The position numbers and the translations under genes are program-made. A DNA stretch of 45,567 nt from Candidatus Methylumidiphilus alinenensis (GTDB taxonomy: Bacteria > Pseudomonadota > Gammaproteobacteria > Methylococcales > Methylococcaceae): assembly GCA_003242955.1 (NCBI GenBank), contig QJPH01000596.1, forward strand, positions 1-45,567, written 5' to 3'. Within the stretch, counting starts at the first letter, position 1. Each line of letters starts with the position of its first letter. The notes beneath the pieces are model-generated. The model saw nothing but the letters and a program-made list of their open reading frames with translations, ran no database searches and was not told the DNA's origin. Shown piece by piece: positions 7,264-36,033 of the stretch.

Positions 7264-10200
7264 ATGAGCCTCTCAAAAGCAGCCATTTTAGAACAAGTGA
7301 GAAACCGGCAAATCAGCCCGGAAGCCGGCCTTAAGCTTTTCCGTGAGTTGGAGCAGGCCCCGTTGCCCGTCGCCGAGCCGGTTTCCCCGCTCCAAGCCGC
7401 CAGCGAACCTGTGGCAAACAGACAGGCATCGGCGGATATTGCCGTGATCGGCCTGTCGGGGCAGATGCCGGGTGCGCAAAACTGGCAGCAGATGTGGACT
7501 TTGTTGAGCGAGGGGCGGGATGCCGTGGGTGAGGTTCCTTGGTCACGGTGGAACGCGGCAAGGCAGGCGGAAGGGACGGAAAGCCGCAAGCGCTGGGGGG
7601 CTTTTCTGGAGGACATTGACTGCTTCGACCCGCTGTTTTTTGAAATCTCGCCGAAAGAAGCCGAACAAATGGACCCGCAGCAGCGCCTGCTATTGCAGGA
7701 AAGCTGGAAGGCGTTTGAAGATGCCGGCTATCCGGCGGAGGCGCTCAGCGAAAAATCCTGTTGCGTGTTCATCGGTTGCACCCAAGGCGATTATCTGAGC
7801 GAAACCGGCAACCGGGAGATCAACCCCCATTCTCTGACGGGCCGCAGCGTGTCGGCGATGGCCGCCCGCATTTCATATTTTTTCAATTTGCGCGGCCCCA
7901 GTGTGACGGTGAATACCGCCTGCTCTTCGTCCTTGGCCGCTTTGGTGATGGCTTGTGAACGATTGCGCGATGGCGGCTCCGAACTGGGCTTAGTGGGCGG
8001 TATTTCGCTGATGAGCACGGCGACGGCGCATACCACCATGGACGAAGTGGGCATGATTTCCCCCGAGGGCAAATGCCGCACCTTCGACCAAGATGCGCAG
8101 GGGATCGTCCCCGGCGAAGCCGTCGGCGTGGTCGTGCTAAAGCGGCTGGCGGATGCCCTGCGCGACGGCGACCCGATTTACGGCGTCATTCGCGGCTATG
8201 GCATTAACCATGACGGCAAAACCAACGGCTTAACCGCGCCCAGCGGCCCGGCGCAGACGGCTTTGCTGCTGGACATTTACCGGCATTTCCAGCTTGACCC
8301 GAACACGCTTGGTTATATCGAAGCGCACGGCACGGGGACCAAGCTGGGCGACCCGATTGAAGTTCACGCGTTGACGGATGCCTTCGCCCATTATGGGGTG
8401 GATAAACGCCAATGCGCCATCGGCTCGATCAAAACCAATATCGGGCATACGCTGGAAGCCTCCGGGTTGATGGGTTTGTTCAAGGTGCTGCTGTGCCTGG
8501 GGCGGCAAAAATTGGTTCCTTCCTTGCATTTCAACACGCCTAACGAGCATATCGCGTTCGCCGACAGCCCATTTTACGTCAACACGCAATTGCGCGACTG
8601 GCCACGCCTAGACGGCCAGCCATTGCGGGCCGGGGTCAGCTCATTTGGCATGAGCGGAACCAACGCCCATGTGGTGGTTGAAGAGCCGCCGTGCACCGCT
8701 GCCGCTTCCGCAGGCGGCAGGCCGCCCCATTATCTGTTTGTGCTGTCGGCAAAAACGCCAGAAGCCTTGGCCTTGCGCGTGGCAGGTATATGGCAATGGC
8801 TGGACGAACATCAATTCGACCCGTCTTTTTCGCTGGCCGATGTCGCCTATACCCTGCAAGTAGGCAGAAGCCATTTCGCCTATCGTGCAGCCATCGTAGC
8901 GCACGATGTCGAAGCATTGCAGGCACGGCTATTGGTGTTGCAAACCCATGTCGCCAACACAACCGAACTAGCCCACCAGCCGGAGACGGCGCTTGGGGCG
9001 GAAAGGAAACTGGCCGAAAGCCGTTTGCGCAGCCTGGCCCAGGCAAGGCCCGATGAAGCCGAACTGATTTTCAATGCCTTGGCGGATTTCTACCGCCAAG
9101 GCGTGCCGTTGGACTGGGGTCTTTTATACCCGGCGGGCAGGCCGAGGCGCATCGCCGCCCTGCCCTGCTACCCGTTTGCCAAGCAGCGGTACTGGCTCCA
9201 TGCCGCAGCAAGCTCCGACCGCCCGACGTTCAGCCGGGCACTAGGCAAGCATCCGCTACTCCACGAAAATACCTCGGACTTGTCCGGGCAGCGCTACACC
9301 GCCTACTTGACCGGCGATGAGTTTTTTCTGGCCGACCATCTCGTGCGCATGGATGGGCAGGGGCTGCGCAAAATCTTGCCTGGCGTGGTTTACTTGGAAA
9401 TGGCGAGGGCGGCAGCGCTGGCCGCAACCGGGCATGACACGGGCATCGATACCGCAATACGGTTCACCGACATTGCCTGGATTCAGCCCCTCTATGTCGA
9501 TCAAGCCCAGCAAGTCCATATTCGAATAGCCGGGGTCGAAGACAACGGACTGCACTATCAAATTTACACAGAATCCCTAAACCCTGTTGCAAACCAAGCC
9601 CCAGTCGCCGTTGTCCATGCCGAGGGAAGGGCGGAAATACTGGGTGCTGTCCCGGTGCAGCCACCGCTGCTGGACATTGCGCAACTGCGGCAACAAACCC
9701 CGCGTGAACTCGGCGCTGAAGCCTGCTATCAACGCATACGCTCAGCCGGTGTTCAGCATGGCGAGTGCTTGCAGGGCATTCAATATGTGGCACTGGGCGA
9801 GGGGCAAGCGCTTGCCAGCTTGTCCCTGCCGGCGGCAATGGATAGCCAGCGCCAAGCCTACGGCCTGCACCCAACGCTATTAGATGCCGCCGTACAGTCC
9901 GCCATCGGCCTAATTCTGGACGCAACGCCGGATAAGGCACAACCCAGCCTGCCGTTTGCGCTGGAACAACTGGACATTCTGGGCGGGTGCGAGGACGAAA
10001 TGCTCGCATGGCTGCGCTACGCTCCGGGCGGCTCGCCAGCCGACACCGTGCAAAAACTGGACATAGACCTGTGCGACCGGCAAGGCCATGTCCGGGTCAG
10101 GATGGCGGGCTTGTCGTCGCGGGCGCGGGGCGCGGAAAAGCCGGCCGCAGTACCGCAGGCTGCTTTTAACGGCGAAGCGGCCCAAACCATTCCACTCCAT

Positions 10201-13200
10201 GCTCTTACGCCGGTTTGGAATGTCGTGCCGACCGGCGAACACACCGGGCTGATGCCGGACTACCGTTGCCGCCTGCTGGTCATCGGCGCCACGGCGGCGC
10301 AAATGCAGGCCATCCGCCAAGTGTATCCCCAAGCCATCCATGCACCGGTGTCCCACTCCGATTCGATTGAAGCGATCAGCCAGTGCTTGAAGGCCCATGT
10401 TTTCGAGCATCTGGTCTGGGTCGCGCCGGAAAGCACCCTGGCCGTGACCGCAAAGGATGCGTGGCTGCCAGACGGCGGAATGATTGATGCGCAAAAACAA
10501 GGTGTGCTGTTCCTGTTCCGCATCATCAAAGCCCTGCTTGCCACGGGCTTCGACGAACTCGGGCTGGAATGGACTCTGCTGACATTCCGCGCCCAGAATT
10601 TGACGCAGCAGGACGAGGCTGATCCGACCCACGCCGGTGTCCACGGGCTGGTGGGCAGTTTGGCCAAGGAATACCCGCACTGGAAAATTCGCTTGCTCGA
10701 TTTGGATTCCGAACAGGATTGGCCTCTGCAAACGTTGTTTGCGTTGCCAGTGGAGCCGGAAGGGCGGGCCTTGGCCTACCGTCAAAGCCACAGTGAGTAC
10801 GCCGTGCGCGGGCCGGAATGGTTCCGCCAGTCGCTGATTCACGTTGATTCCTTGCAAGCCGCTTCGCTATACCAAAACGGCGGCGTTTATGTCGTCATCG
10901 GCGGTGCAGGGGGAATCGGCGAAGCGTGGAGCCGCTTTATGATCGAGCGCCATCAGGCGAAGATCGTTTGGATTGGGCGGCGCGAAAAGGACGAGGCCAT
11001 CCAGCGGCGGCTAGACGCGTTGCCCAATCCCGCGAGCGCCAGCTATATCGCCGCCGATGCGCGGGATTTCGCCGCGATGGAAAAAGCCTGCCGTAAAATC
11101 AAAGCCCTCCATCCGAAAATACATGGCGTGGTGCATTCGGCCATTGTGCTGAACGACCTCAGTTTGGGCAGAATGGACGAACAGCGCTTCATGGACTCCT
11201 TGTCGGCCAAAGTCGATGTGAGCGTTTGCTTGGCCCGTGTCTTCCGCAAGGAGCCTCTGGACTTCGTGCTGTTCTTTTCCTCTATGCAAGCCTTTTCCCG
11301 TGCGCCAGGGCAAAGCAATTACGCCGCCGGCTGCACCTTCAAAGATGCCTTTGCCCTGAAGCTAGCCCGGCAATGGCCTTACACCTTCAGCAACGGCAGC
11401 AGCTACCACAAGCCTACGGTCAAAGTGGTCAACTGGGGCTACTGGGGTTCCATTGGCATTGTCAACGACGATGCCTACCATAATCGCCGCAAAGACGACG
11501 ACGAAGGCTCCATCGAGCCACAGGAGGCTATGGAATTCCTAAGCCGGTTTGTCGCTTCGCCGTTTACCCAATTGGCGCCGTTTAAAGCCCTGACCGCCAA
11601 AGCTCTTGCACAAGCCTGCGGCACGGAAGACATCACGGCCTACCCGACTAGGCTCCCGTCCATTTTGGACAAAGTCCGGCAGCGGTTTGCCGAAAGCCAG
11701 TCCCGCTTGCCCCATGCCCAGACGGAATGGCGGCGGCTGGAGGAAGCGTCACAGTGCCCGGACATGGACGCGCTGCTGTTCAGACTATTGGACGCGAGCT
11801 TGCAAGCTCTGGCCTTGCGCGAAGGCCAGCACTCATTGCCCGGTTACTTGCAGCGTTGGCTACAGGAAAGTCTGCGCCTTTTGAACGCAGTCGCACGGCC
11901 GGCAGGCCACGCCGAAGCCCTAGACAGGCTGTGGGCCGAGTGGGATAACGCTAAAGTCGGCTGGGCGGCAAACCCCAACCTGAAAGCCGCAATCGTCCTT
12001 ATCGAAACCTGCATGAAGGCGCTGCCGGACATTCTCACCGGTCGGCTTGCCGCAACCGACGTGATGTTCCCCAATTCCTCAGTGGAACTCGTGGAAGGCA
12101 TCTATCGGGGCAACCTGGTCTCGGACTATTTCCAGCAAGCGCTGGCAGACTTTTTAGTGTCCGCGATCAAACAACGCTTAAGCGAGAACGCCTCCGCCAG
12201 CCAGCCGTCACCCAGTCTGCGCATTCTTGAAATCGGCGCAGGCACCGGCGGCACCACGTCGGTCATCCTGCCTCGGCTCCAGCCCTTCGCCGGTGCCATT
12301 GAGGAATATTGCTACACCGACCTTTCGCGGGCCTTTTTGCTGCATGCACAGGAGCATTACGCGCCGGGGCGGCCGTTCCTGTCGATGCGGATTTTCAATG
12401 TGGAAAAGCCCCTGGCCGCACAGGCGGGGGCGGATACCGGTGTGTCGGCAGACCGTTACGATTTTATCGTTGCGGCAAACGTGCTGCATGCGACCAAGGA
12501 CATTCGCAATACCTTGCGCAATGCCAAGGCGGCTTTGCAGACCAACGGCGTTTTGCTGTTGAACGAACTCAGCCAGCATTCGCTGCTATCACACCTTACC
12601 TTCGGTTTGCTGGAAGGCTGGTGGCTTTACGAAGACGCGCCCTTGCGGATTCAGGGAAGCCCCGGCCTGTTTCCTGAAACTTGGCTGGACATACTCGGCG
12701 AGGAAGGATTCACACTGGCCTGCCTGCCAGTAAAAAATGCCCGTTCGCTGGGGCTGCAAATCATCGCCGCGCAAAGCGACGGCATTGTGCGCCAAACGCG
12801 GCCAGCACTGGAAATAGCCGATGAAGCCGCCACGACGCCCACAACAACGCCTACAGCCACCTCGCACAGCCAAGCCGCCGCTTTCAGCGAGACCTTGCTG
12901 CGCGAAAAAGCCACGGATTACCTCAAACAACGGGTGGCGCACACCCTGAAAATGAGCCCGCGCCAAATTGATTCTTCCAAGCCTTTGGAAATTTACGGCA
13001 TCGACTCTATCCTAGTCGTCCAACTGGCTAACGCGTTGCGCAAGGATTTCAAAAAAATCAGCAATACACTGTTTTTTGAAGTCCAGACGATTGATGCCTT
13101 GGCGGAACATTTTCTACAGACGCAGAAGGATGTTTTAGCACGCCTAGTCGGCTTGGAACAGGGTGGGCCCGCCGACAATACTGTAGAATTAAGCACGCCC

Positions 13201-16200
13201 ACGTTCCAAATCGTAGGGCGGCAACCCTTTGCCGCCGAGACAAACCGTGTACCCAGTCGGCATAGGGATGCCGACCTACCCCTTAATTCAACAGTATTGG
13301 GGCCCGCCGAACCGCCGCCGCGCCGGGAAGGCAGGCAAACCGACTTCAGCCGAAACCTGCAAGCCAGCCGGCAAGGCGGACCATCCATCAACGGCCACAG
13401 CGGAGCCGGGAAGCAAGGCTTGAACGTCTTTGACGTGGCGATCATCGGCCTCAGCGGGCGCTATCCAAAAGCCCCGGATGTCGATGCACTCTGGGAGCAA
13501 CTGAAAGCAGGAAACAATTGCGTGAGTGAAATTCCCGCCAGCCGCTGGGAATGGCAGGCATACTTTGACCCCCAGAAAGGCAAAGCGGGGAAAATGTATA
13601 CCCGTTGGGGCGGCTTTCTTGATGACGTGGACTGCTTCGATCCTTTGTTTTTCCGTATTTCGCCGCGTGAAGCGGAAGCCATGGACCCCCAAGAACGGTT
13701 GTTTTTGCAGTGCGCTTACCAAGCCCTGCAAGACGCGGGCTATACCCCGGACAATTTTGGCGGCGACCGCCAAACCGGGGTCTTTGTCGGCGCGATGAAC
13801 TCCAGCTACCGGGGCAAGCCCGCCCATTTCTCGATAGCCAACCGGGTCTCCTACCAGTTTGATTTTCAAGGGCCAAGCATGGCGGTGGACACGGCGTGCT
13901 CGGCTTCGCTCACTGCCTTGCATGTCGCGCTGGAAAGCCTGTATTGCGGCAGTTGCCAGCGGGCCATCGTCGGCGGCGTGAACCTGATCCTAGCCCCCAC
14001 TCACTACATCGGCCTGACCGAGTTGGGGATGCTCTCCGCAGGCCCCGAATGCAAATCGTTTGGCAACGGGGCGGACGGCTTCATCGCGGCGGAGGGCGTG
14101 GGCGCGGTCATTCTCAAGCCGCTGACGCAAGCCATCAAGGACGGGGACAACATCTATGCCGTGCTGAAAGGCAGTGCCGTTAATGCCGGCGGCAGAACCA
14201 ACGGCTACACCGTGCCGAATCCCAACGCGCAGGCGGCGATGGTGGCCGAGGCCCTGCGCCGGGCCGGCATTTCCGCCGCCGCCGTCAACTATGTGGAAGC
14301 CCACGGCACAGGCACCGCGCTAGGCGACCCGATTGAAATCAAAGCACTGGCAAAGGCGTTTGAAAGCTCGCTGGCGGACGGCTTCGCGGCCCATCCGCAA
14401 AGCTGTGCGATTGGTTCCATCAAATCCAACATCGGCCATTGCGAAAGTGCGGCCGGCATCGCCGGGCTGACCAAGGTATTGTTGCAATTGCAGCATCAAC
14501 AACTGGCCCCTTCCTTACACAGCGCATCCCTCAATCCGGCCATTGAATTCAAGGACACGCCGTTTGTGGTGCAGCAGGGCCTGGCCCATTGGCAGCGTCC
14601 CCGTGTGCAGGTGAACGGCGAGACTCAATACGCGCCAAGAACGGCGGGGCTGTCCTCGTTTGGTGCCGGCGGGGCGAATGCCCATGTCATTATTGAAGAA
14701 TACATTCCCCCCGCCTGGCAAAATGCGTTGCAGCAATCGGCGCAGCCGGCCATCGTTCCTTTGTCCGCAAAAAACGCGGAGCGCCTGCGCATTGTTGCCG
14801 CCCGGTTGCTGCAAAAGCTGCGGAAAACACCGGTCGATGCAAGCCCTCGGGGTTTTAATCTTGCCAATCTGGCTTATACCTTGCAAGTTGGGCGCGAGGC
14901 GATGGATGCCCGCGCAGGCTTCATAGCCAGTTCCATGCGGGAACTGGAAGAGAAGCTGGATGCCTTTCTGGCCCAAGATGTCGGCGACGGGGTTGCAGGG
15001 CTTGAGGATGTTTATCAGTCGCCTGCAAAAACCGGCGCGGCAGCGTCGAATTTGTTGCATTCGGACGAAGACGCCGCCGCCCTGCTCGATGCCTGGATGG
15101 CGAAAAAGAAATATCCGAAGTTGCTGGAACTGTGGACAATGGGTTTTACCGTCGATTGGAACCGCCTGCACCAGTCGGACGGGGTGCCGCACCCGCATCG
15201 CATCAGCCTGCCCACCTATCCCTTCCTCAAAGAGCGCTATTGGCATGAAGAGTCAGTGCCGCAGCCTAAACCAAGTCCGCAGCCTGTGCGGGCGGCCTCC
15301 CCGCCGACCTGTCCCGATGCGCCCGAACAGGCAAGGGGCATCAGCTTCCTGGCCCGCTGGGATGCCCAAGCCGACGCGCCGCAGCGTGTTCAGGCCTCCC
15401 AGCAAACCGTGCTGATCGTGTGCGGCGAGTCTCCGTCCCGCCTGGAGCAGGCTCTGGCGGAACACCACCGTGACGTCGAAACCATCCTGATCCGGCTGGC
15501 ATCCGAAACCAGACACGTCTCCGCCGCCGAGTGGCTGTGCGGCATCGGCGACACGTCGGGGTTTGCAAGCTGCCTGCGCGGGGCGGGAGAAATTGACTGC
15601 CTGTATTTTCTTTCTCTGGACGAGGCAGAACCCGGTGGCCTGCCGCTGCATGCCTTGGCGTGCAGCCAGGAACGCAACGAAATCCAACTGTTGCGGCTGG
15701 TCAAATACCTGACGGCGCATAACCACCAGCCTCATACCATCGACACCTACATCCTGACGCTGGACAACTATGCCCTGGCCGACGAAGCCGTCCGCCCCCA
15801 AGGCGCGGGACTGACCGGCTTGGCCTACGCCATTGCTCAGGGCAATCACCGCTTCGCCGTCCGCAATATTGATTTGTCCAGCCAGGATCTGGCGCAGCCT
15901 GCGCTGCGCCAAACCTTGCTGGCGGCCATTGTCCGCGAGCCAGCCTCAAGTCAAGGCGAAGTTATCAAAATCCGGGCAGGTACCCGCTACCGGCAAGCGT
16001 TTTACGACTTGGCTTGGCCTGACCCTGCATTTTCGCCGATTAGGCAAGGCGGCGTTTACTTGATACTCGGCGGGGCCGGCACGATAGGGCGGGCGATAAG
16101 CCGCCATCTCATCAGCCAATATCGGGCGCGTGTCATTTGGCTGGGACGAAGCGCGGAACAGGCCGCAAATGTGCAAGAGGCGCTCCAGGCATTTGCCGGC

Positions 16201-19200
16201 TTCGCCGATCAGCCAAGCTATATCCAGGCTGATGCCACATGCCTGGATTCCATGCGGCAGGCGGTGGAGTGCGTCAAAAGGGAGTATCCTGCCATTCACG
16301 GCGCACTTTATTCCGCGCTGTTGTTCGATGCCGACAACTCCATCGACAAAACTACCGAAGCCGCGTTCAGAGCCATACTGGACGTGAAAACCAAAGGCAG
16401 TGTCTATTTTTACGCCGCTTTGGAAAACGAGCCGCTGGATTTTTTGTGTTATTTTTCTTCCGGGCAGGCGTATGCCTTTTCCGGCGCGGCAAAGCATTCA
16501 GCCTATGCCAGCGGGATTGCATTCTCGGACGCCTTGGCGCAGGCGCTGCATCGCCGTGCCAAGTTCCCTGTCGGCACGATCAACTGGGGATTCTGGCGGT
16601 CGTCCTTTAAGCAAAGCCCCGCCGCGCAAAACTTTTCTTGCCTGGATGACGAGGAAGGCTGCGCCTGCTTTGAAAGGTTTGTGTTCGCCTTGCAACAGCC
16701 GACACCGCTGTCACAAGTCCTGTGCTTCAGGCCGTCGCCGTCGGTGCTGGCGCTGATGAACTATCACAGGCCAACAGATGCCGCTGCACATTCTGCGGCG
16801 GTCAGTAAAATAACCGACATTGACGAACACATCCGGGAGATTGCCGCCGACAGTTTCGCAAACACTTTGAAGGCGCCAAGAGAGAATATTGATCCAAACT
16901 TGGCGTTTGCCGAATATGGGCTAGATTCCATTCTGGGCGTCCGCTTTGTCAACCTGATCAATGACCGTTTGAACATCCGTTTGAACACGGCGGTCATTTT
17001 TGAGTATTCCTCGCTTGCGCGTCTCACCAAGCATTTAATCAAGCGCTACCGGGGAGACATTGCGGCACAGGCTTTGCCCGCCGCCGAACCCGCACCGGCC
17101 ATTCCAGAACCCCGTCCGCATGTCGCGGCGGCATCCGCCGACATTGCGGTAATCGGCATGTCGGGGAAATTTCCAGGGGCCTTGAATATCGCCGAGTTCT
17201 GGGACAAGCTGATCCAAGGAACCAGCGGCATTGTGGAATACCCCGAGCAATACTTGGATCAGGCGCGTTATTTCAGCCCTGCCAAAGAGCCGGGCAAAAG
17301 CTATTGCAAATGGGGCGGGATTTTGCCGGACAGGTACGGCTTCGATCCGCAGTTCTTCAATCTCTCGCCGCGTGAAGCCCATGCCATGAATCCTCATCAG
17401 CGCCTGGTCATGCAGGAGGGCTGGAAAGCGTTTGAGGACGCCGGCTACAACCCGGCTCGGCTGGGCGGCTCCAAAACCAGCGTAATCATCGGGGCCGAAC
17501 CGACTGGCTATTTTCAGGGAAGTTTCACCGGTGCTTCCGACGCACTGGTCGCCTCCCGCCTGTCGTACTGCCTAAACCTAGGTGGTCCGGCGCTGGTGGT
17601 CAACACTGGCTGCTCTTCTTCCGCAGTGGCGATCCATCTGGCCTGTGAAAGCCTGCGCAGCGGCGAGTCGGACTTGGCTCTGGCCGGCGGTGTCAACGCC
17701 TGCATGAACCAAGACGCGCTGATTAATCTGTCAGCGGCGGAGATGCTGTCGCCGCGCGGAATATGCGCCACATTTGACGCATCGGCGGACGGGACGGTTA
17801 TTTCCGAGGGCATCGGCGTGGTGGTGCTGAAGCGCTTGGAAGACGCCATAGCCGATGGCGACAGCATTGACGGTGTGATTTGCGGTTCCGGCATCAACCA
17901 AGACGGAGCAAGCAACGGCCTCACAGCGCCCAACGGCCTGGCCCAAGAACAGTTGATCGCCGACATCTACCAAAAATTCGGCATCGACGCGGCGGCCATC
18001 AGCTACATCGAAGCCCACGGCACCGGCACCAAGCTCGGCGACCCGGTGGAGGCCAATGCCTTGGCCAGGGCATTTAAAAGGCTGACCCGCCAGCAGGCTT
18101 GCTGCGCGGTAGGCAGTGCCAAGTCGCACATCGGACACACTTCGGCGGCGGCGGGTGTCATTGGCCTGATTAAGACCTTGTTGTCAATGAGGCACCGGAA
18201 GCTTCCGCCACTCCTGCATTTCAATCGGCTCAATCCCCTGATCGAGTTCGAAGGCTCGCCTTTTTACATCAATGCCCAAGCGGCGGCATGGCAAGCCCCG
18301 TCCGGTGCCCCGCGCATGGCGGCGGTCAATTCGTTCGGCCACAGTGGCACTAATGCCCATTTGGTCGTCAGAGAGCATAGTCCGTCAGCCCCTGTGCCTA
18401 GCGGCAGGGCAAACAACGGGCAAATTTGGCCGGTTCCCTTGTCAGCCAAGACAGAAAGCAGCCTGAGCACACTGGTCCAAGACTACGCCACTTTTCTTGA
18501 GCGCTTGCAAAACGGTTCTTTGGACCAGACCGCCACATTGGCGGAAATCGCCCGCACCCTGCAAACCGGGCGGGAGGCCATGCGATTCCGGCTGGTTTTT
18601 GCCGCCGAAACGGTTTCCGAACTGGCGCAGAAAATGTTAGCGTTCCTTGACGGGCAAAATGTGGCGGGTTGTTGGCAGGGTGTCGCGCAATCCCGCAATG
18701 CCGCAGATAGCCCACCGCCTGCACCGGACGCGCCAGTCGAACAACTCGCCCAACGCTGGTGCCAGGGGCAAGCGTTGGATTGGGCGGCTAGCTATGGCCA
18801 GCCCGCCAAACGCGTCCATTTGCCGACCTATCCTTTCGCCAACAAAGAATACGGCCCGCAATGTCAGCCTACGCAACAAGGCGGCGCATTGCCAGCGCAC
18901 AAAGATGTGTTGCTGGCGCAACTACAGGCGCAGAGCAGCGATCTGCAAAACACTAGGATGGAAGCCTTGCTGTTTGATTTGCTATGGGCCAACCTGCACG
19001 AGGCCGGTATTGTCACCTGGGTGGAAAGCCCGGAGGCATCCGGCGAGATTGCGGTTTCCTCAATGGTTGCGCTCGCTGCAGCCCGCAGCCCGCGCCACAA
19101 GATTCCCGCGTTCTACCAGCGCTGGCTCGATGAAAGCATCCAATTGCTGATTGACAGGCAATACCTGTACCGGCAGGATGGGAAGCTTTTCTGCTTCAAA

Positions 19201-22200
19201 CAAGACATCGCCTGCTTGGATGCCCTGTGGGACGAATGGGGCAGGGAAAAGCCGCGTTGGCTGGAAAATCCCAACCAGCGGGCGCAAATTGGTTTGGTGG
19301 AGGCTTGCCTGCGCTGGCTGCCGGCCATTCTGACTGGGCAAAAGTTGGTCACCGACATCATGTTTCCCAATGGCAGCATGGAACTGGTCGAAGCTATTTA
19401 TCAGAACAATCTGGTGTCTGACTATTTCAACGCCGTGTTGGGCGACGCACTGGTCGCGGCCATCCAGGCACACATGCAGGCGGCCCCCGGAGCCGCCATT
19501 CGCATTCTGGAAATCGGTGCCGGGACTGGCGGCACCACCCGTGGCTTGCTACGGCAATTGCGGCCTTTCCAGCAGGTTCTAGCCGAGTATTGCTATACCG
19601 ACTTGTCCAAAGTCTTCCTGAACCATGCGAAGCGGCACTACGCACCGGGCAACCCTTATTTGTCGACCAAGTTATTGGACATAGACAAGCCCTTGGCCGA
19701 ACAAGATGTACCACTCCATCATTTTGACTTTGCCATTGCAACCAATGTCTTGCACGCCACCGGCAACGTTCGACGCACCTTGCGCCACACCCGCTCCGCC
19801 TTGCGCCCCGGCGGACTGCTGTTGATTAATGAAATGAGCGACAAATCTCTGTTTGTCCACTTGACGTTCGGCTTGCTAGAAGGGTGGTGGCTATACGACG
19901 ATGCCGAGTTGAGGATTCCCGGCATACCGGGCCTTCAGCCGGAAAGCTGGTCGCGGGTGCTGGCGGAGGCCGGCTTTGCCCGTGTGACTTTTCCCGCGCA
20001 GGCGGAGCATGGCTTTGGGCAGCAAATCATCATTGCGGAAAATAGCCGTGAAGCCGTGGCACCCTTGGGCGACGGCTTGGACGGGACGGCGGCGCAAACT
20101 GAAGATGCGCAAAATTCGATTGCCGAAGTGCTCGTTGCGGAACTCGCCGAAGCCCTACAAATGGAGTGCGACGACATCGGAATGGACGAGTCATTTGCCG
20201 ATTACGGGCTGGACTCCCTGCTGGGCATCAACTTCATCCGCCGACTCAACCAGCGCCTCGGCCTAGACTTGGAAACCGTGGCGATCTTCGACTACAATTC
20301 GGTGCGCAAGCTACGGGATTACATCGCCGACACGCATCGAGGTTTGCGGTCCGCATTCGCGCATTCGACAGTCCCTGCCCCGAAAACGCGGGGGGACTGC
20401 GCGGCGCGGCGCGGCGATGCCAACACAAGTGACCCGGCGCAAGCCGGTGCCATGCATGGGCAAAGCCCGACGGTCGGTAGCAGCGCGACATTCGCCCAAG
20501 AGCCTATTGCGATTGTGGGCATAAGCGGCCAGTTTGCCCGGTCTCCCAACCTAGATGTCTTATGGGAAAACCTAGCAGCCGGCAAAGACTTGGTGTGCGC
20601 CGCCTCGCGCTGGGATTTGTCCAAATTTTTCTCGCCTAGCCAACTCAAAGATCCCGATTTTCGCGTCGATGGCGGATTCATGGACGACATTGACCGCTTC
20701 GACCCCCTGTTTTTCAAAATTTCCGGGGCCGAAGCCGCCTATATGGACCCGCAACAGCGAATTTTCTTGGAAACTGCATGGAGCGCCTTGGAAAACGCCG
20801 GCTATGCCGATGATAGCGCGGACGGCAAGCCATACGGCATCTTTGTCGGCTACGGTGGCTCGGACTACGTCCGTTTGTTTGACACCGGGACTGCGCCCGC
20901 CCAGGCGTTCTGGGGGAACTCGGCATCGGTCATTCCAGCGCGCATCGCCTACTACCTGAACATTCACGGGCCAGCGGTCACCGTGGACACGGCCTGCTCA
21001 GGCTCCTTGGTGGCGATCCACCAAGCGTGCCAAGCCTTATGGATGCGGGAAATCAAGCTTGCTCTAGCCGGGGGCGTATCGGTGATGTGTACGCCCACGT
21101 TCTACCAGACGGGCACCCGGGCGGGCATGTTGTCCCCAACGGGCCGTTGCCGCAGTTTTGACGAAACGGCGGACGGCTTTATTCCGGGCGAAGGCGCGGG
21201 TGTGGTGGCTTTGAAACGCTTGAGCGACGCTGTCGCGGATGGCGACCACATCCACGGCGTGATTCGCGGCAGCGGCATCAACCAGGACGGCAATACGAAC
21301 GGCATCACCGCGCCCAGCGCCAAGTCGCAAGAACGCTTGGAACGCTACGTTTACGACCGCTTCCACATTGACCCCGCCGACATTCAAATGGTCGAGGCGC
21401 ACGGGACAGGCACAAAACTTGGCGATCCCATTGAAGTCAGTGCCTTGACACGCGCTTTCCGCGCCTACACGGACAAAGCCGAGTATTGCGCCCTAGGCTC
21501 GGTCAAAACCAACATAGGCCATGTCGGCCCGGTGGCCGGTGTCGCCGGACTGTTCAAAATCCTGCTGTCCATGAAGCACCGTAAAATGCCGGCTTCGCTG
21601 CATTTCGAGCGGGCCAATCCAGAAATCCGCTTCAAGGGCAGCCCATTTTATGTCAACACCAGACTGCGAGACTGGCATGTCGATGGTGGAGGCATCAGGT
21701 GCGCAGCCCTTAGTTCGTTTGGCTTTAGCGGAACCAATGCGCACTTGGTCATTGAAGAAGCCCCCGCAAGCCCACGCCGCCACGGCGAAAAACCCGCTTG
21801 GCTGATTGCCCTGTCTGGCCGCAGCGAGAACGTGCTGGCTCGGCAGGCGGAAAACCTTCTGGCATTTTGCGCACAGGCCGACGCACTGGGCGAGCCGGTG
21901 GATTTGGGCAATCTCAGCTACACCTTACTGACGAAGCGCAAGCACTGGAACCATCGCCTGTCCTGCGTCGCCGACTCTTTGGAAAGCCTGCGTCGCATAT
22001 TGGGACAGTGGTTGGCGACCGGGCGGGTGCGCGACGTTTATGTTGCGCAATTGCAAGAGGACAGCACCCGCGAACAGGCTGCGCTACAACGGCATCTCAA
22101 TGAATGCCTGGAAAAATGCCGACAAACCCCGGTGGCGGACGATTACATCGAAAGCCTAAGCACTGTTGCCGAGTTGTACGTCCAAGGCTATGGGCTGGAT

Positions 22201-24498
22201 TTCTGCGGTATGTTTTCCCAAAGCCACCAAACCCTGCCGCTGCCCACCTACCCCTTTGCCAGAGAGTCATACTGGGTGGAACCCGCAGCAGCCCAGAACC
22301 GTCCCCCCTCTGTTGAATTAACTCCTTCCCTTCACGGGGGAAGGCTGGGCAATACTGTTGAATTAAGCACGCTCACATACCAAATCGTAGGGCGGCAACC
22401 CTTTGCCGCCGAGACAAACCGTATGCCCAGTCGGCATAGGGATGCCGACCTCCTCCTTAATTCAACAGCATTGGCTTCACAGCCGACCGGCCAGGAGGCC
22501 GCCACGTCGGGCCAAGACTGGCTATTTGTTCGGGAGGACTGGATTGATGCCCCGCTGGCCGCAGGGGTGGACTGGAAAGCCCGCCTAATCCAGTTTGCCG
22601 GCAAAGTGGTCTGGGCGGTGTATACGGATGCGTGGGATCGGGAACCGTTCGCGCAACTGTTAAACCAATTGCAGACGGCTGCCGGGTTGTCCGCGCCACT
22701 GCAAGTGCAATTGATCCACGCCCAAGGCCTGGTGCTGGATCGATTGATGCCCTCCCCCGCCGTCGTACTGTTCCTAGGGCCGCAGGCCAGTTCCGCAGTG
22801 CAAGCCGCCGACGGCGACATCGCGGCGGTTTACCATCTTAGCCAGTTCCTGATGCGCAGAGATTGGGAAGAGCCGGTACAGATTTACTATCTGTACGCAA
22901 GCGACCCGGCAGTGCCGCGTTTGGATTGCGAAGCGCTTCCCGGCCTGCTCGGCACGGCGATGATGGAAAACCCAAACCATGCATGGACATTGATCGCTTG
23001 CCATGGTCTAAGGCCAGAAGTGACAGGCATGCAATTGCTGGCCCAGGAATGGCTGGCAGACGGGCATGATGCGGTTGCCCAAAAACTGGCCCGCCGGGAA
23101 TCCGCGCAGGGGGCGCAGATATTCCAGAGCCAGACTTTCCCGAGGGTGCGTTACGAACAATCGCGGCGGCAGATCAACCGCAGAGTTCAAACGGGCTTCA
23201 ACAGCGTGGCAACCCCGCTGTTCCAAGCCGGCAAAACCTACCTGCTGGCAGGCGGGTTGGGCCTAGTCGGGGAGGAAGTCTGCGCCGAGTTAGCCAAGCA
23301 CTATCAATCCACCTTAGTTATCCTGTCCAGAAGCGCCTACGATTCGCGGCGGCAGGGACAATGCGAGAGGCTTGCAGCCTTGGGAGGGCGGGTGCATTAT
23401 TATTCCGTCGATATAGCTGATCGCGCCGCGCTGCGGCAGACCTATGCCGATGTCAAACAGCGGCTTGGGCCGATTCACGGTGTCATCCATCTGGCCAACA
23501 CAGTGGAAGGCGGCCTGATCGCCAGCATGGACTGGGCATCGTTCCAGCAAATGGGGGCGGTCAAAACCCAAGGCAGCCTGCACTTGGACGAACTGACCGC
23601 AGGCGAGCCGCTGGACTTCTTTATACTGTTTTCTTCGATTGTGGCGTTCGGCATACGCGGATCGGCCGGCTACAGCTACGCCTGCGCGTTCCTGAACCAG
23701 TTTGCCAGCCACCGCAACCGCCTTAAAGACCTAGGCCAACGTTCAGGCAGCACCGTGTCCCTTTGTTGGGGGCCTTGGACTTCCGATCCTGTCCACGCCA
23801 GCCAAGACAACCAGCGCAGGCAGAAAATCCAAGCCGATGGCTTTGGTCTAATCTCCATTGAAAAGGCTTTCCCGCTGCTAGGCCGTTGTCCCGCCCAAAG
23901 GCTGGACATGCTAGCCGTCTGGGCCGTCCGCGATCTAGCAAAAGTGTCTCGGTTCATGGATGTGCAAACCGAGGGTAGGCCGGGGCAACCGGAAGCCCTG
24001 TCCGGCAATGACTGGGAAGCCAAAATCGGCGCTTGGGAGCAGCAAGCCTTACAGGGAAGGCCACTGCCTGCGGAGTGCTTGGCGAAAGCCATCAACTTGG
24101 AGGAAATTCAATTGCTGGAGCCGTCTTTGATTCAGCGCATCCACCGTCTGCTTTTTCCCAAGCAAGACATTCCGCCTGCAGCAGGTCTTGCCCCCGCCCC
24201 GGCGGAACCGCCTTTGCCATTCCGTCCGACCGGTCAGGAAACTGAAGCCGACAAGCTGGCAAGCATCAAAGCGGCCATTCGGGATGTGGCTTGCGAGCTG
24301 CTTAAGCTGAAAGAATTGGATGAGCGGGAGGCTTTCCAGAACTACGGCATGGACTCGGTGTTTGGTGTCCAATTGGCCATCCGCCTGGAAAAGAAGCTGG
24401 GGAGGGAGATTTCACCAATGTGGCTGATCGACTTCCCGTCAATCCAGGCATTATCACGGCGCATCCTTGAACTGTTTGCGGAACCCGTTGAAGTTTAG
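7264..24498 (+). CDS. Four-module trans-AT polyketide synthase
   Basis: A giant type I modular PKS of 5744 residues. Domain order: KS1-DH-KR-cMT-ACP, KS2-KR-ACP, KS3-cMT-ACP, KS4-KR-ACP. Each KS is followed by the linker typical of AT-less modules (YTLQVGRE-like and LPTYPFxxxxYW motifs) and no AT domain with a GHSxG motif is present, so malonyl units must come from a separate acyltransferase not found in this window. The N-terminus (MSLSKAAILEQVRNRQISPE) looks like a helical docking segment, suggesting an upstream partner protein that is not encoded here. All four KS domains keep Cys-His-His. Two in-frame copies of a 124-bp palindromic repeat lie in its linkers. The start ATG has only a weak AGAAG site in front of it. 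Confidence 0.95.
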   Translation: MSLSKAAILEQVRNRQISPEAGLKLFRELEQAPLPVAEPVSPLQAASEPVANRQASADIAVIGLSGQMPGAQNWQQMWTLLSEGRDAVGEVPWSRWNAARQAEGTESRKRWGAFLEDIDCFDPLFFEISPKEAEQMDPQQRLLLQESWKAFEDAGYPAEALSEKSCCVFIGCTQGDYLSETGNREINPHSLTGRSVSAMAARISYFFNLRGPSVTVNTACSSSLAALVMACERLRDGGSELGLVGGISLMSTATAHTTMDEVGMISPEGKCRTFDQDAQGIVPGEAVGVVVLKRLADALRDGDPIYGVIRGYGINHDGKTNGLTAPSGPAQTALLLDIYRHFQLDPNTLGYIEAHGTGTKLGDPIEVHALTDAFAHYGVDKRQCAIGSIKTNIGHTLEASGLMGLFKVLLCLGRQKLVPSLHFNTPNEHIAFADSPFYVNTQLRDWPRLDGQPLRAGVSSFGMSGTNAHVVVEEPPCTAAASAGGRPPHYLFVLSAKTPEALALRVAGIWQWLDEHQFDPSFSLADVAYTLQVGRSHFAYRAAIVAHDVEALQARLLVLQTHVANTTELAHQPETALGAERKLAESRLRSLAQARPDEAELIFNALADFYRQGVPLDWGLLYPAGRPRRIAALPCYPFAKQRYWLHAAASSDRPTFSRALGKHPLLHENTSDLSGQRYTAYLTGDEFFLADHLVRMDGQGLRKILPGVVYLEMARAAALAATGHDTGIDTAIRFTDIAWIQPLYVDQAQQVHIRIAGVEDNGLHYQIYTESLNPVANQAPVAVVHAEGRAEILGAVPVQPPLLDIAQLRQQTPRELGAEACYQRIRSAGVQHGECLQGIQYVALGEGQALASLSLPAAMDSQRQAYGLHPTLLDAAVQSAIGLILDATPDKAQPSLPFALEQLDILGGCEDEMLAWLRYAPGGSPADTVQKLDIDLCDRQGHVRVRMAGLSSRARGAEKPAAVPQAAFNGEAAQTIPLHALTPVWNVVPTGEHTGLMPDYRCRLLVIGATAAQMQAIRQVYPQAIHAPVSHSDSIEAISQCLKAHVFEHLVWVAPESTLAVTAKDAWLPDGGMIDAQKQGVLFLFRIIKALLATGFDELGLEWTLLTFRAQNLTQQDEADPTHAGVHGLVGSLAKEYPHWKIRLLDLDSEQDWPLQTLFALPVEPEGRALAYRQSHSEYAVRGPEWFRQSLIHVDSLQAASLYQNGGVYVVIGGAGGIGEAWSRFMIERHQAKIVWIGRREKDEAIQRRLDALPNPASASYIAADARDFAAMEKACRKIKALHPKIHGVVHSAIVLNDLSLGRMDEQRFMDSLSAKVDVSVCLARVFRKEPLDFVLFFSSMQAFSRAPGQSNYAAGCTFKDAFALKLARQWPYTFSNGSSYHKPTVKVVNWGYWGSIGIVNDDAYHNRRKDDDEGSIEPQEAMEFLSRFVASPFTQLAPFKALTAKALAQACGTEDITAYPTRLPSILDKVRQRFAESQSRLPHAQTEWRRLEEASQCPDMDALLFRLLDASLQALALREGQHSLPGYLQRWLQESLRLLNAVARPAGHAEALDRLWAEWDNAKVGWAANPNLKAAIVLIETCMKALPDILTGRLAATDVMFPNSSVELVEGIYRGNLVSDYFQQALADFLVSAIKQRLSENASASQPSPSLRILEIGAGTGGTTSVILPRLQPFAGAIEEYCYTDLSRAFLLHAQEHYAPGRPFLSMRIFNVEKPLAAQAGADTGVSADRYDFIVAANVLHATKDIRNTLRNAKAALQTNGVLLLNELSQHSLLSHLTFGLLEGWWLYEDAPLRIQGSPGLFPETWLDILGEEGFTLACLPVKNARSLGLQIIAAQSDGIVRQTRPALEIADEAATTPTTTPTATSHSQAAAFSETLLREKATDYLKQRVAHTLKMSPRQIDSSKPLEIYGIDSILVVQLANALRKDFKKISNTLFFEVQTIDALAEHFLQTQKDVLARLVGLEQGGPADNTVELSTPTFQIVGRQPFAAETNRVPSRHRDADLPLNSTVLGPAEPPPRREGRQTDFSRNLQASRQGGPSINGHSGAGKQGLNVFDVAIIGLSGRYPKAPDVDALWEQLKAGNNCVSEIPASRWEWQAYFDPQKGKAGKMYTRWGGFLDDVDCFDPLFFRISPREAEAMDPQERLFLQCAYQALQDAGYTPDNFGGDRQTGVFVGAMNSSYRGKPAHFSIANRVSYQFDFQGPSMAVDTACSASLTALHVALESLYCGSCQRAIVGGVNLILAPTHYIGLTELGMLSAGPECKSFGNGADGFIAAEGVGAVILKPLTQAIKDGDNIYAVLKGSAVNAGGRTNGYTVPNPNAQAAMVAEALRRAGISAAAVNYVEAHGTGTALGDPIEIKALAKAFESSLADGFAAHPQSCAIGSIKSNIGHCESAAGIAGLTKVLLQLQHQQLAPSLHSASLNPAIEFKDTPFVVQQGLAHWQRPRVQVNGETQYAPRTAGLSSFGAGGANAHVIIEEYIPPAWQNALQQSAQPAIVPLSAKNAERLRIVAARLLQKLRKTPVDASPRGFNLANLAYTLQVGREAMDARAGFIASSMRELEEKLDAFLAQDVGDGVAGLEDVYQSPAKTGAAASNLLHSDEDAAALLDAWMAKKKYPKLLELWTMGFTVDWNRLHQSDGVPHPHRISLPTYPFLKERYWHEESVPQPKPSPQPVRAASPPTCPDAPEQARGISFLARWDAQADAPQRVQASQQTVLIVCGESPSRLEQALAEHHRDVETILIRLASETRHVSAAEWLCGIGDTSGFASCLRGAGEIDCLYFLSLDEAEPGGLPLHALACSQERNEIQLLRLVKYLTAHNHQPHTIDTYILTLDNYALADEAVRPQGAGLTGLAYAIAQGNHRFAVRNIDLSSQDLAQPALRQTLLAAIVREPASSQGEVIKIRAGTRYRQAFYDLAWPDPAFSPIRQGGVYLILGGAGTIGRAISRHLISQYRARVIWLGRSAEQAANVQEALQAFAGFADQPSYIQADATCLDSMRQAVECVKREYPAIHGALYSALLFDADNSIDKTTEAAFRAILDVKTKGSVYFYAALENEPLDFLCYFSSGQAYAFSGAAKHSAYASGIAFSDALAQALHRRAKFPVGTINWGFWRSSFKQSPAAQNFSCLDDEEGCACFERFVFALQQPTPLSQVLCFRPSPSVLALMNYHRPTDAAAHSAAVSKITDIDEHIREIAADSFANTLKAPRENIDPNLAFAEYGLDSILGVRFVNLINDRLNIRLNTAVIFEYSSLARLTKHLIKRYRGDIAAQALPAAEPAPAIPEPRPHVAAASADIAVIGMSGKFPGALNIAEFWDKLIQGTSGIVEYPEQYLDQARYFSPAKEPGKSYCKWGGILPDRYGFDPQFFNLSPREAHAMNPHQRLVMQEGWKAFEDAGYNPARLGGSKTSVIIGAEPTGYFQGSFTGASDALVASRLSYCLNLGGPALVVNTGCSSSAVAIHLACESLRSGESDLALAGGVNACMNQDALINLSAAEMLSPRGICATFDASADGTVISEGIGVVVLKRLEDAIADGDSIDGVICGSGINQDGASNGLTAPNGLAQEQLIADIYQKFGIDAAAISYIEAHGTGTKLGDPVEANALARAFKRLTRQQACCAVGSAKSHIGHTSAAAGVIGLIKTLLSMRHRKLPPLLHFNRLNPLIEFEGSPFYINAQAAAWQAPSGAPRMAAVNSFGHSGTNAHLVVREHSPSAPVPSGRANNGQIWPVPLSAKTESSLSTLVQDYATFLERLQNGSLDQTATLAEIARTLQTGREAMRFRLVFAAETVSELAQKMLAFLDGQNVAGCWQGVAQSRNAADSPPPAPDAPVEQLAQRWCQGQALDWAASYGQPAKRVHLPTYPFANKEYGPQCQPTQQGGALPAHKDVLLAQLQAQSSDLQNTRMEALLFDLLWANLHEAGIVTWVESPEASGEIAVSSMVALAAARSPRHKIPAFYQRWLDESIQLLIDRQYLYRQDGKLFCFKQDIACLDALWDEWGREKPRWLENPNQRAQIGLVEACLRWLPAILTGQKLVTDIMFPNGSMELVEAIYQNNLVSDYFNAVLGDALVAAIQAHMQAAPGAAIRILEIGAGTGGTTRGLLRQLRPFQQVLAEYCYTDLSKVFLNHAKRHYAPGNPYLSTKLLDIDKPLAEQDVPLHHFDFAIATNVLHATGNVRRTLRHTRSALRPGGLLLINEMSDKSLFVHLTFGLLEGWWLYDDAELRIPGIPGLQPESWSRVLAEAGFARVTFPAQAEHGFGQQIIIAENSREAVAPLGDGLDGTAAQTEDAQNSIAEVLVAELAEALQMECDDIGMDESFADYGLDSLLGINFIRRLNQRLGLDLETVAIFDYNSVRKLRDYIADTHRGLRSAFAHSTVPAPKTRGDCAARRGDANTSDPAQAGAMHGQSPTVGSSATFAQEPIAIVGISGQFARSPNLDVLWENLAAGKDLVCAASRWDLSKFFSPSQLKDPDFRVDGGFMDDIDRFDPLFFKISGAEAAYMDPQQRIFLETAWSALENAGYADDSADGKPYGIFVGYGGSDYVRLFDTGTAPAQAFWGNSASVIPARIAYYLNIHGPAVTVDTACSGSLVAIHQACQALWMREIKLALAGGVSVMCTPTFYQTGTRAGMLSPTGRCRSFDETADGFIPGEGAGVVALKRLSDAVADGDHIHGVIRGSGINQDGNTNGITAPSAKSQERLERYVYDRFHIDPADIQMVEAHGTGTKLGDPIEVSALTRAFRAYTDKAEYCALGSVKTNIGHVGPVAGVAGLFKILLSMKHRKMPASLHFERANPEIRFKGSPFYVNTRLRDWHVDGGGIRCAALSSFGFSGTNAHLVIEEAPASPRRHGEKPAWLIALSGRSENVLARQAENLLAFCAQADALGEPVDLGNLSYTLLTKRKHWNHRLSCVADSLESLRRILGQWLATGRVRDVYVAQLQEDSTREQAALQRHLNECLEKCRQTPVADDYIESLSTVAELYVQGYGLDFCGMFSQSHQTLPLPTYPFARESYWVEPAAAQNRPPSVELTPSLHGGRLGNTVELSTLTYQIVGRQPFAAETNRMPSRHRDADLLLNSTALASQPTGQEAATSGQDWLFVREDWIDAPLAAGVDWKARLIQFAGKVVWAVYTDAWDREPFAQLLNQLQTAAGLSAPLQVQLIHAQGLVLDRLMPSPAVVLFLGPQASSAVQAADGDIAAVYHLSQFLMRRDWEEPVQIYYLYASDPAVPRLDCEALPGLLGTAMMENPNHAWTLIACHGLRPEVTGMQLLAQEWLADGHDAVAQKLARRESAQGAQIFQSQTFPRVRYEQSRRQINRRVQTGFNSVATPLFQAGKTYLLAGGLGLVGEEVCAELAKHYQSTLVILSRSAYDSRRQGQCERLAALGGRVHYYSVDIADRAALRQTYADVKQRLGPIHGVIHLANTVEGGLIASMDWASFQQMGAVKTQGSLHLDELTAGEPLDFFILFSSIVAFGIRGSAGYSYACAFLNQFASHRNRLKDLGQRSGSTVSLCWGPWTSDPVHASQDNQRRQKIQADGFGLISIEKAFPLLGRCPAQRLDMLAVWAVRDLAKVSRFMDVQTEGRPGQPEALSGNDWEAKIGAWEQQALQGRPLPAECLAKAINLEEIQLLEPSLIQRIHRLLFPKQDIPPAAGLAPAPAEPPLPFRPTGQETEADKLASIKAAIRDVACELLKLKELDEREAFQNYGMDSVFGVQLAIRLEKKLGREISPMWLIDFPSIQALSRRILELFAEPVEV
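7432..13137 (+). other. PKS module 1: KS-DH-KR-cMT-ACP
   Basis: KS1 covers about residues 57-475 with Cys220 (NTACSSS), His355 (HGTGT) and His395 (NIGHTLEASG). DH covers about 658-952, with His692 in ADHLV and Asp874 in HPTLLDAAVQ, so it appears active. KR has GGAGGIG at about 1213, Ser1340 and Tyr1353 (NYAAGCTFKDAF). The C-methyltransferase has LEIGAGTGGTT at 1655-1665 for S-adenosylmethionine. The ACP serine is Ser1915 (GIDSI). Expected unit: alpha-methyl, alpha,beta-unsaturated. The domain order matches common trans-AT modules. Confidence 0.9.
13165..13310 (+). mobile_element. 124-bp palindromic element, copy 1, in frame in the ACP1-KS2 linker
   Basis: The element runs 13176-13299. Its ends are inverted repeats: CAATACTGTAGAATTAAG (13176-13193) and CTTAATTCAACAGTATTG (13282-13299), with one mismatch. 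Inside are two perfect 8-bp hairpins, 13217-13236 (GGCGGCAA/TTGCCGCC) and 13256-13275 (GTCGGCAT/ATGCCGAC). The element is directly flanked by GGGCCCGCCGA at 13165-13175 and 13300-13310, a perfect 11-bp direct repeat that looks like a target duplication. Element plus one repeat is 135 bases, exactly 45 codons, so the PKS frame stays open. A second copy lies at 22350-22473. Confidence 0.85.
13432..17058 (+). other. PKS module 2: KS-KR-ACP
   Basis: KS2 begins near residue 2057 with Cys2212 (DTACSAS), His2347 (HGTGT) and His2392 (NIGHCESAAG). No DH-like HxxxGxxxxP block follows. The KR has GGAGTIG from 2936, Ser3066 (FSSGQ) and Tyr3081 (SAYASG). The ACP has Ser3222 (GLDSI). Expected unit: beta-hydroxy. 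Confidence 0.88.
17140..20340 (+). other. PKS module 3: KS-cMT-ACP
   Basis: KS3 begins near residue 3293, with Cys3450 (NTGCSSS), His3585 (HGTGT) and His3625 (HIGHTSAAAG). There is no KR. The C-methyltransferase has LEIGAGTGGTT at 4082-4092 and is closely similar in motif layout to the one in module 1. The ACP has Ser4318 (GLDSL). Expected unit: alpha-methyl, beta-keto. Confidence 0.88.
22310..22349 (+). repeat. Extra hairpin segment abutting palindromic element copy 2
   Basis: CTGTTGAATTAA at 22310-22321 repeats the end motif of the neighbouring element (22355-22366) at a 45-base offset, exactly 15 codons. Between them lies a hairpin CCTTCCC/GGGAAGG (22324-22330 and 22338-22344). This looks like a partial or nested second insertion that also kept the frame. 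Confidence 0.5.
22350..22473 (+). mobile_element. 124-bp palindromic element, copy 2, in frame in module 4
   Basis: Same length and architecture as copy 1. The ends are CAATACTGTTGAATTAAG (22350-22367) and CTTAATTCAACAGCATTG (22456-22473), and the same two internal hairpins are present. The encoded peptide is nearly identical to that of copy 1: both contain NTVELST and, later, GRQPFAAETNR and PSRHRDADL. No clear flanking direct repeat is seen for this copy, apart from GGCT near both ends. Confidence 0.8.
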
Positions 24499-35918: not shown

Positions 35919-35934
35919 GAAATCAGCCCTTGAC

Positions 35935-35995
35935 GGAACGCCAAGCCCCAGCTTGGCGCGGTACACCCTGATGCCAAGCTGGGGCTTGGCGTTCC
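35935..35995. repeat. Perfect 23-bp inverted repeat (REP/MITE-like)
   Basis: The arms 35935-35957 and 35973-35995 are exact reverse complements over 23 bases. The left arm reads GGAACGCCAAGCCCCAGC then TTGGC, and the loop is 15 bases. A long perfect stem with nested CCAAG/CTTGG symmetry is typical of dispersed palindromic repeats in GC-rich proteobacteria. No coding potential. Confidence 0.75.
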
Positions 35996-36033
35996 GATAA
36001 ACGCTTAAACTTAATGGTAGTGAGGAGTCAGCC

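Follow-up and report, generated by a model that had tools for sequence, protein, structure and literature searches.

We describe a 124-bp palindromic unit inserted in frame in a giant modular polyketide synthase (PKS) gene of Candidatus Methylumidiphilus alinenensis (contig QJPH01000596.1, assembly GCA_003242955.1; the whole 45,567-nucleotide stretch analysed is called the window). We propose that the unit is very probably a non-autonomous element, i.e. a miniature inverted-repeat transposable element (MITE), with an IS4-type DDE transposase as the most likely enzyme to move it in trans, and that its in-phase insertions are read through so that the host gene survives, other phases being lost by selection. 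The element has defined ends, many copies and target duplications, it is missing from orthologous PKSs, and its relatives show a bias towards in-frame positions. To judge from the open frame, it probably becomes part of the host protein.

The following mechanism is envisaged. An IS4-type DDE transposase, acting in trans, would recognise the 18-bp end CAATRCTGTTGAATTAAG, here called T1, and make an 11-bp staggered cut, an inverted pair of repetitive extragenic palindromic (REP) sequences being carried between the ends. Insertion in the right phase in a linker or loop would add 45 residues (124-bp form) or 52 residues (145-bp form), and insertions in other phases would disappear through selection. 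Since the ends are open in a single frame and the added length is a multiple of three, an in-phase insertion would be read through; in the own genome, element plus duplication is nearly always such a multiple.

The element and its polyketide synthase host

As the original prediction had described, the unit at 13176-13299 carries inverted ends (13176-13193 and 13282-13299, matching at 17 of 18 positions), two internal hairpins (13217-13236 and 13256-13275, each with an 8-bp stem and a 4-nt loop) and a perfect 11-bp direct repeat on its flanks. Unit and duplication together make 135 bp, or 45 codons, throughout which the PKS frame is kept and stop-free. A scan of the window for 11-bp repeats at a distance of +135 found this single position, which speaks against chance. 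The unit is short, encodes no transposase, and has terminal inverted repeats, a target duplication and many dispersed copies, in agreement with a MITE. Its core consists of two GTAG-headed REP hairpins in an inverted pair, and it is for this core only that the description of a REP doublet (REPIN) applies. The original prediction had overlooked that the hairpins are GTAG-type REPs forming an inverted pair, that the PKS holds a further copy of the unit, and that other cores occur between such ends. Rfam at gathering threshold gave no match across the window. The features are as follows.

7264-24498, + strand: modular PKS open reading frame (ORF), 5744 aa, with two in-frame copies
13165-13175, + strand: target duplication, left copy, GGGCCCGCCGA, perfect 11-bp direct repeat
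13176-13193, + strand: left inverted end, T1 type, read as NTVEL in the PKS frame
13194-13212, + strand: linker from the left end to the REP core
13213-13236, + strand: GTAG-type REP unit, hairpin GGCGGCAA/TTGCCGCC
13256-13279, - strand: second GTAG-type REP unit in opposite orientation, hairpin GTCGGCAT/ATGCCGAC
13282-13299, - strand: right inverted end, T1 type, read as LNSTVL in the PKS frame
13300-13310, + strand: target duplication, right copy of GGGCCCGCCGA
22303-22349, + strand: probably what is left of an older element whose end is similar (5 mismatches), read as PPSVELTPSLHGGRL, absent from three orthologs
22350-22473, + strand: second full 124-bp copy, 93% identical, same strand and frame, downstream of the KS4 region and ahead of the next ketoreductase (KR)

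The first element lies between an acyl carrier protein (ACP) domain (residues 1885-1949) and a ketosynthase (KS) domain starting near residue 2057, as assigned with Pfam, and PKS residues 1972-2012, counted from the coordinates, fall wholly within it. No target duplication is visible around the second copy (3 of 11 bases matching); as the remnant at 22303-22349 adjoins this copy, a deletion may have removed its duplication.

A protein search of 311 genomes of the order (E<=1e-100) matched the PKS in 16, own included. Three of them (G107, G101 and G030) hold long close orthologs and form the basis of the comparison, the matches in the other genomes being less similar. The matches to the three orthologs fall into two blocks (71-77% identity) with a break around the element, and whole-protein alignment (70-71% identity over 5547-5610 residues) places both inserts in the window's protein alone, with linkers too diverged for the empty sites to be placed to the base. 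Relative to these orthologs, the window's PKS has four private runs of at least 8 residues, all at the two insert sites, those at site 2 including the older remnant. Within the genus, none of the six congeners has a PKS protein ortholog at E<=1e-100, and no long match to the PKS part was found among the DNA matches listed. The window's PKS, of a type ~5,600-5,800 aa long, is conserved at ~70% identity outside its own genome, in three genomes of the order (L257, L258, L259; loci are numbered with L, genomes with G).

The own genome (G000; 6.57 Mb, 597 contigs) holds 45 BLAST matches of the unit at E<=0.001, 17 of which are at least 115 nt long at 90-100% identity, the unit itself included; across 61 genomes, 9 are matched, again counting the own. 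The mobile nature of the unit, as originally claimed, is hence borne out by many copies in the own genome and in congeners, and instead of a lone unit whose peptide is shared by orthologs, the opposite was found. A search of named genomes for the paired-end pattern yielded 31 stretches, 28 from three metagenome-assembled genomes (MAGs) named uncultured Methylococcaceae (23, 4 and 1) and three from one Verrucomicrobia MAG. The latter (G311; L130, L139, L142) contains 112 sites (58+54) of a near-identical end, mostly CACTGCTGTTGAATTAAG, and its inverted ends are often paired 151-199 bp apart among the sites listed.

Ends, duplications and the proposed mobilising enzyme

The T1 end occurs at 58+55 sites in the own genome at up to 2 mismatches, compared with 1+1 for the reversed control, and at up to 1 mismatch it is found in 7 of 7 genomes of the genus, with 0 for the control. 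In Table 1 of PMC2266710, the IS4 subgroup is given the end consensus -AATR--------WTW---- and direct repeats of 10-13 bp; T1 fits the consensus, and the 11-bp duplication falls within the range. The ends of IS4 from E. coli K-12 match T1 at 11-13 of 18 positions, and its flanks form a 12-bp duplication. Taken together, an enzyme of IS4 type is the most likely candidate for mobilising the T1 ends.

T1-T1 pairs were defined with up to 3 mismatches per end, using the shortest partner for each left end (n=35), and drawn from DNA covering most of 100 among the 113 end sites. Duplications matching at 9 or more of 11 positions flank 15 of the 35 pairs, as opposed to 1.2% for re-paired flanks. For the T2 end, a second type described below, they flank 24 of 45 pairs, against 4.7%; this set is the listed and fetched part of 277 sites. 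Separately, T1 insertions in genome G005 are repeatedly flanked by one target, AGGGTTAGGGT (L227, L229, L232, L234, L235, L244).

These data bear on the alternative that the unit is a plain REPIN moved by a REP-associated tyrosine transposase (RAYT), with the outer ends as incidental flanks. The core is an inverted GTAG REP pair, a sister genus, like the own genome, has matches to the core only, and among the own ones four loci (L027-L030, two of which lie at a contig end) have no T1-like end within 3 mismatches, all of which favours the REPIN reading. On the other hand, 17 aligned copies share the ends, several with 11-bp duplications just outside, and unrelated cores are enclosed by the same ends. 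RAYT-type enzymes are not known to make a target duplication, which further counts against such an origin, and we regard it as unlikely.

Reading frame and host genes

T1 is open in a single frame, the same on both strands, giving NTVEL at one end and LNSTVL at the other, and in-gene copies should therefore read NTVEL...LNSTVL or similar. This is seen, with different cores, at 23 loci (28 element-ORF rows, with some repetition and nesting); the exception is L189, a pair spanning 332 bp that has a left end with another reading, and in L006 the core runs in the reverse direction.

For the location test, the element and one duplication were removed in silico, and only ORFs that reached 250 aa and extended 20 aa or more to either side of the site were counted. 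T1 elements fall in such empty-site ORFs in 22 of 35 cases (L044 counted for two left ends), and 21 of these 22 remain open when occupied. In the T2 comparison, 9 of 45 lie in long ORFs and 1 of the 9 is open. Fisher's test of T1 versus T2 gives p=1e-5 for open or broken, 2e-4 for being in an ORF and 4e-9 for both in an ORF and open, the copies being mutually non-independent. The contrast suggests selection. In the MAG LinL3_bin-0520, all 16 frame-breaking 123-bp elements have duplications of at least 10 matching bases, and one of them (L128) is in a long ORF, which it breaks; the one copy in the same MAG that is close to the window's (L071, 97% identical, 124 bp) lies in phase within an open frame of 518 aa, 13 aa short of its end.

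Two simpler arguments were set aside. Length modulo 3 fits in 34 of 35 T1 elements, yet these represent only about seven length classes, and frame compatibility as the sole determinant of location is weakened by genome G005 and by the copies L126, L134 and L140 of LinL3_bin-0520.

Besides the PKS, in-frame copies are present in 20 ORFs, 19 of which match a Pfam family (L200 matches none). The MITE identity anticipated in the original prediction holds; its picture of a MITE settling in PKS linkers is too narrow, as nothing shows a preference for them. The families are as follows.

L005, L009, L013: FGE-sulfatase
L013: NACHT
L017: GH30
L023: AAA_33 with Metallophos
L035: AMP-binding
L044: contractile-injection tape measure
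L149: exosortase
L151: beta-lactamase
L152: MMPL
L154: ketoacyl-synt_2
L157: haem-oxygenase-like
L161: TPS
L163: nonribosomal peptide synthetase (NRPS)
L165: penicillin amidase (penicillin acylase)
L167: heparinase
L175: HsdR
L179: TonB plug
L006: peptidase M20

The inserts of L163, L175 and L023 lie between domains. In L017, L035 and L165 they are unaligned to solved structures, bar the first few residues in L017. The GH30 chain 5ngk has 7 residues between the aligned blocks versus 62 in L017, and the fatty acyl-AMP ligase (FAAL) chain 3pbk has 39 versus 89 in L035, where the first block is weak (i-Evalue 0.12). In L165, the insert is found between the part matching the acylase alpha-chain and the start of the beta-chain. 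We infer that such positions are tolerated by the proteins and that selection causes the in-frame bias.

Two further explanations address the open frames themselves. The peptide could be a selected protein module with a function of its own, spread between genes by recombination; the encoded ends are alike across unrelated proteins, and diverged copies are still open, including a 103-bp copy that is 21 bp below the common form. However, the peptide is absent from the three orthologous PKSs, the host proteins are unrelated, some copies with near-perfect duplications are found outside long ORFs, and the only open frame of the ends already yields the same peptide; we regard the module reading as similarly unlikely to the REPIN one. 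Alternatively, the host genes may be decaying and the open frames recent accidents, in keeping with a fragmented, repeat-rich genome (597 contigs) and with L003, whose ORF seems broken. Set against this are the 21 of 22 in-ORF copies that are open, several with decayed duplications, and the 5744 open codons of a PKS with both insertions; we consider decay the least probable of the three.

Several observations weigh against the proposed read-through insertion of a MITE by an IS4-type enzyme. The search for a transposase gene with T1 ends was negative: for PF01609, 33 matches are listed across the seven genomes of the genus (9 in the own), and 0 of 31 inspected loci have a T1 or T2 end within 3 mismatches in up to 1.5 kb on each side, less at contig ends. 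A linked DDE transposase with the YREK motif, as expected for an IS4-subgroup derivative, was likewise not found at these loci. Neither PF01609 together with PF13808 in the own genome nor the T1-like ends of the Verrucomicrobia MAG G311 led to a full-length parent insertion sequence (IS). Good duplications are missing from 20 of the 35 T1 pairs, including the in-gene copies L005, L012, L013 and L165, and L003, the single exception among the 22, appears to break its ORF. The 124-bp copies L126, L134 and L140 of LinL3_bin-0520 are outside long ORFs, as are most T1 elements of G005, many of them with an open frame though; in this genome, ORFs of at least 250 aa account for 3 of 23 rows, 2 of the 3 being open, and location would thus be governed by something else as well, perhaps target choice. 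Finally, T2 differs in lengths and targets (such as ACGCAGAGCGT) and is no clean control.

Interchangeable cores and known systems

T1 ends enclose several cores: at 124 bp a GTAG REP pair, at 145 bp a CGTC REP pair, at 135 bp a palindrome with CTTCGACAAGCTCAGGGCGAACGG, besides others that are G+C-rich. The T2 end, CACTGCCATTAAGTTAAG, with 136+141 sites (control 0), is joined to the CGTC core too, and at the same junction as T1. Among the 14 T1 elements of 145 bp, ten have interiors 87-94% identical to that of a T2 element and one is 78% identical, the interiors of L152, L167 and L200 being unrelated. In L022 and L024, a relative of the window's element has itself received a T2-capped core as an insertion, with a perfect 11-bp duplication.

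The 30 CGTC-motif loci, corresponding to 28 distinct elements, were sorted by eye according to their ends. The T1-like group comprises L260, L261 (one end), L264 and L276, and the T2 group L262, L266, L267, L268, L273, L277, L281 and L283/L284. A third end, near CCTGATTAGGAAGATGYTTCAGCTA, is present in L265, L269, L271, L274, L280, L282, L285, L286/L287 and L289, and at one side only in L275 and L278, while L263, L270, L272, L279 and L288 have no clear cap. To our knowledge, no dedicated transposase is known for CGTC-type REPs. It is possible, and we put it forward tentatively as a little short of probable, that this is a modular cap-and-core system, in which REP pairs of several families, CGTC included, have repeatedly been set, at a nearly fixed junction, between differing transposon ends (T1, T2 and the third, CCTGATTAGGAAGATG...), whose enzymes would then mobilise them, with the T1 cap supplying the reading frame that lets very different cargo into protein-coding genes.

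Two related structures were observed. At L148:2029-2161, one T1 and one T2 end are paired over a span of 133 bp, and the window itself has a one-ended T2-type element at ~35920-36022 with a GAACGCCAAGCC palindrome, the right end of which is CACTACCATTAAGTTTAA (36005-36022, 3 mismatches), no left end being found.

Correia elements of Neisseria are a different family with other ends and are likened to ours by description. They exist in 107-bp and 155-bp forms, and an excerpt of PMC2229807 describes the open-frame form as fused in genes and the stop-bearing form as almost exclusively intergenic, a split resembling the contrast between T1 and T2. The MITE at hupL of Ca. Thiomargarita nelsonii is similar, by description, in copy number and in its inverted and direct repeats (many copies, 19-bp inverted and 10-bp direct repeat), and hupL is reported as interrupted in PMC4853749. 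IS elements of the IS4 subgroup share end consensus and direct-repeat length, as tabulated in PMC2266710, but measure 1400-1650 bp, as opposed to 103-217 bp and no transposase gene in the elements here. Dimers of GTAG and CGTC REPs inside genes are known, with flexible linkers or loops suggested as tolerated sites, according to passages of the 2013 survey PMC3733652. Both superfamilies likewise serve as cores here; unlike those dimers, however, as the passages describe them, the pairs here lie between transposon-like ends with target duplications. How CGTC REPs spread is a question left open in the same passages, and transport as cargo between IS4-like ends is one route suggested by our data.

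The searches made of the open-licence PMC literature, within the terms used, turned up no account of in-frame MITEs in Methylococcaceae or PKS genes. As far as this search reaches, the IS4-like end with an 11-bp duplication around REP cores and the insert-free orthologs are new, as are a REP core common to several end types and end-encoded peptides that are alike whatever the core.

The comparison with Rickettsia palindromic elements (RPEs) made in the original prediction is apt in kind. RPEs comprise several families of ~105-150 bp that sit in frame in genes unrelated to one another and encode a conserved peptide, as outlined in extracts of PMC10969869 and PMC2229807, and the T1 element is alike in these last respects, a likeness of description with no membership claimed. 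In contrast to RPEs, whose duplication is marked '?' in the table of PMC2229807, the T1 element has an IS4-like end, an 11-bp duplication, insert-free orthologs and interchangeable cores. Outside the intracellular Rickettsiales, the element of this relative of the methane oxidisers is a well-resolved example of mobile DNA that recurs in frame within genes, and for giant PKS and NRPS genes it documents one way in which linker length changes. Because its ends and duplications are defined and insert-free orthologs exist, both insertion and tolerance become testable in a system that parallels the RPEs.

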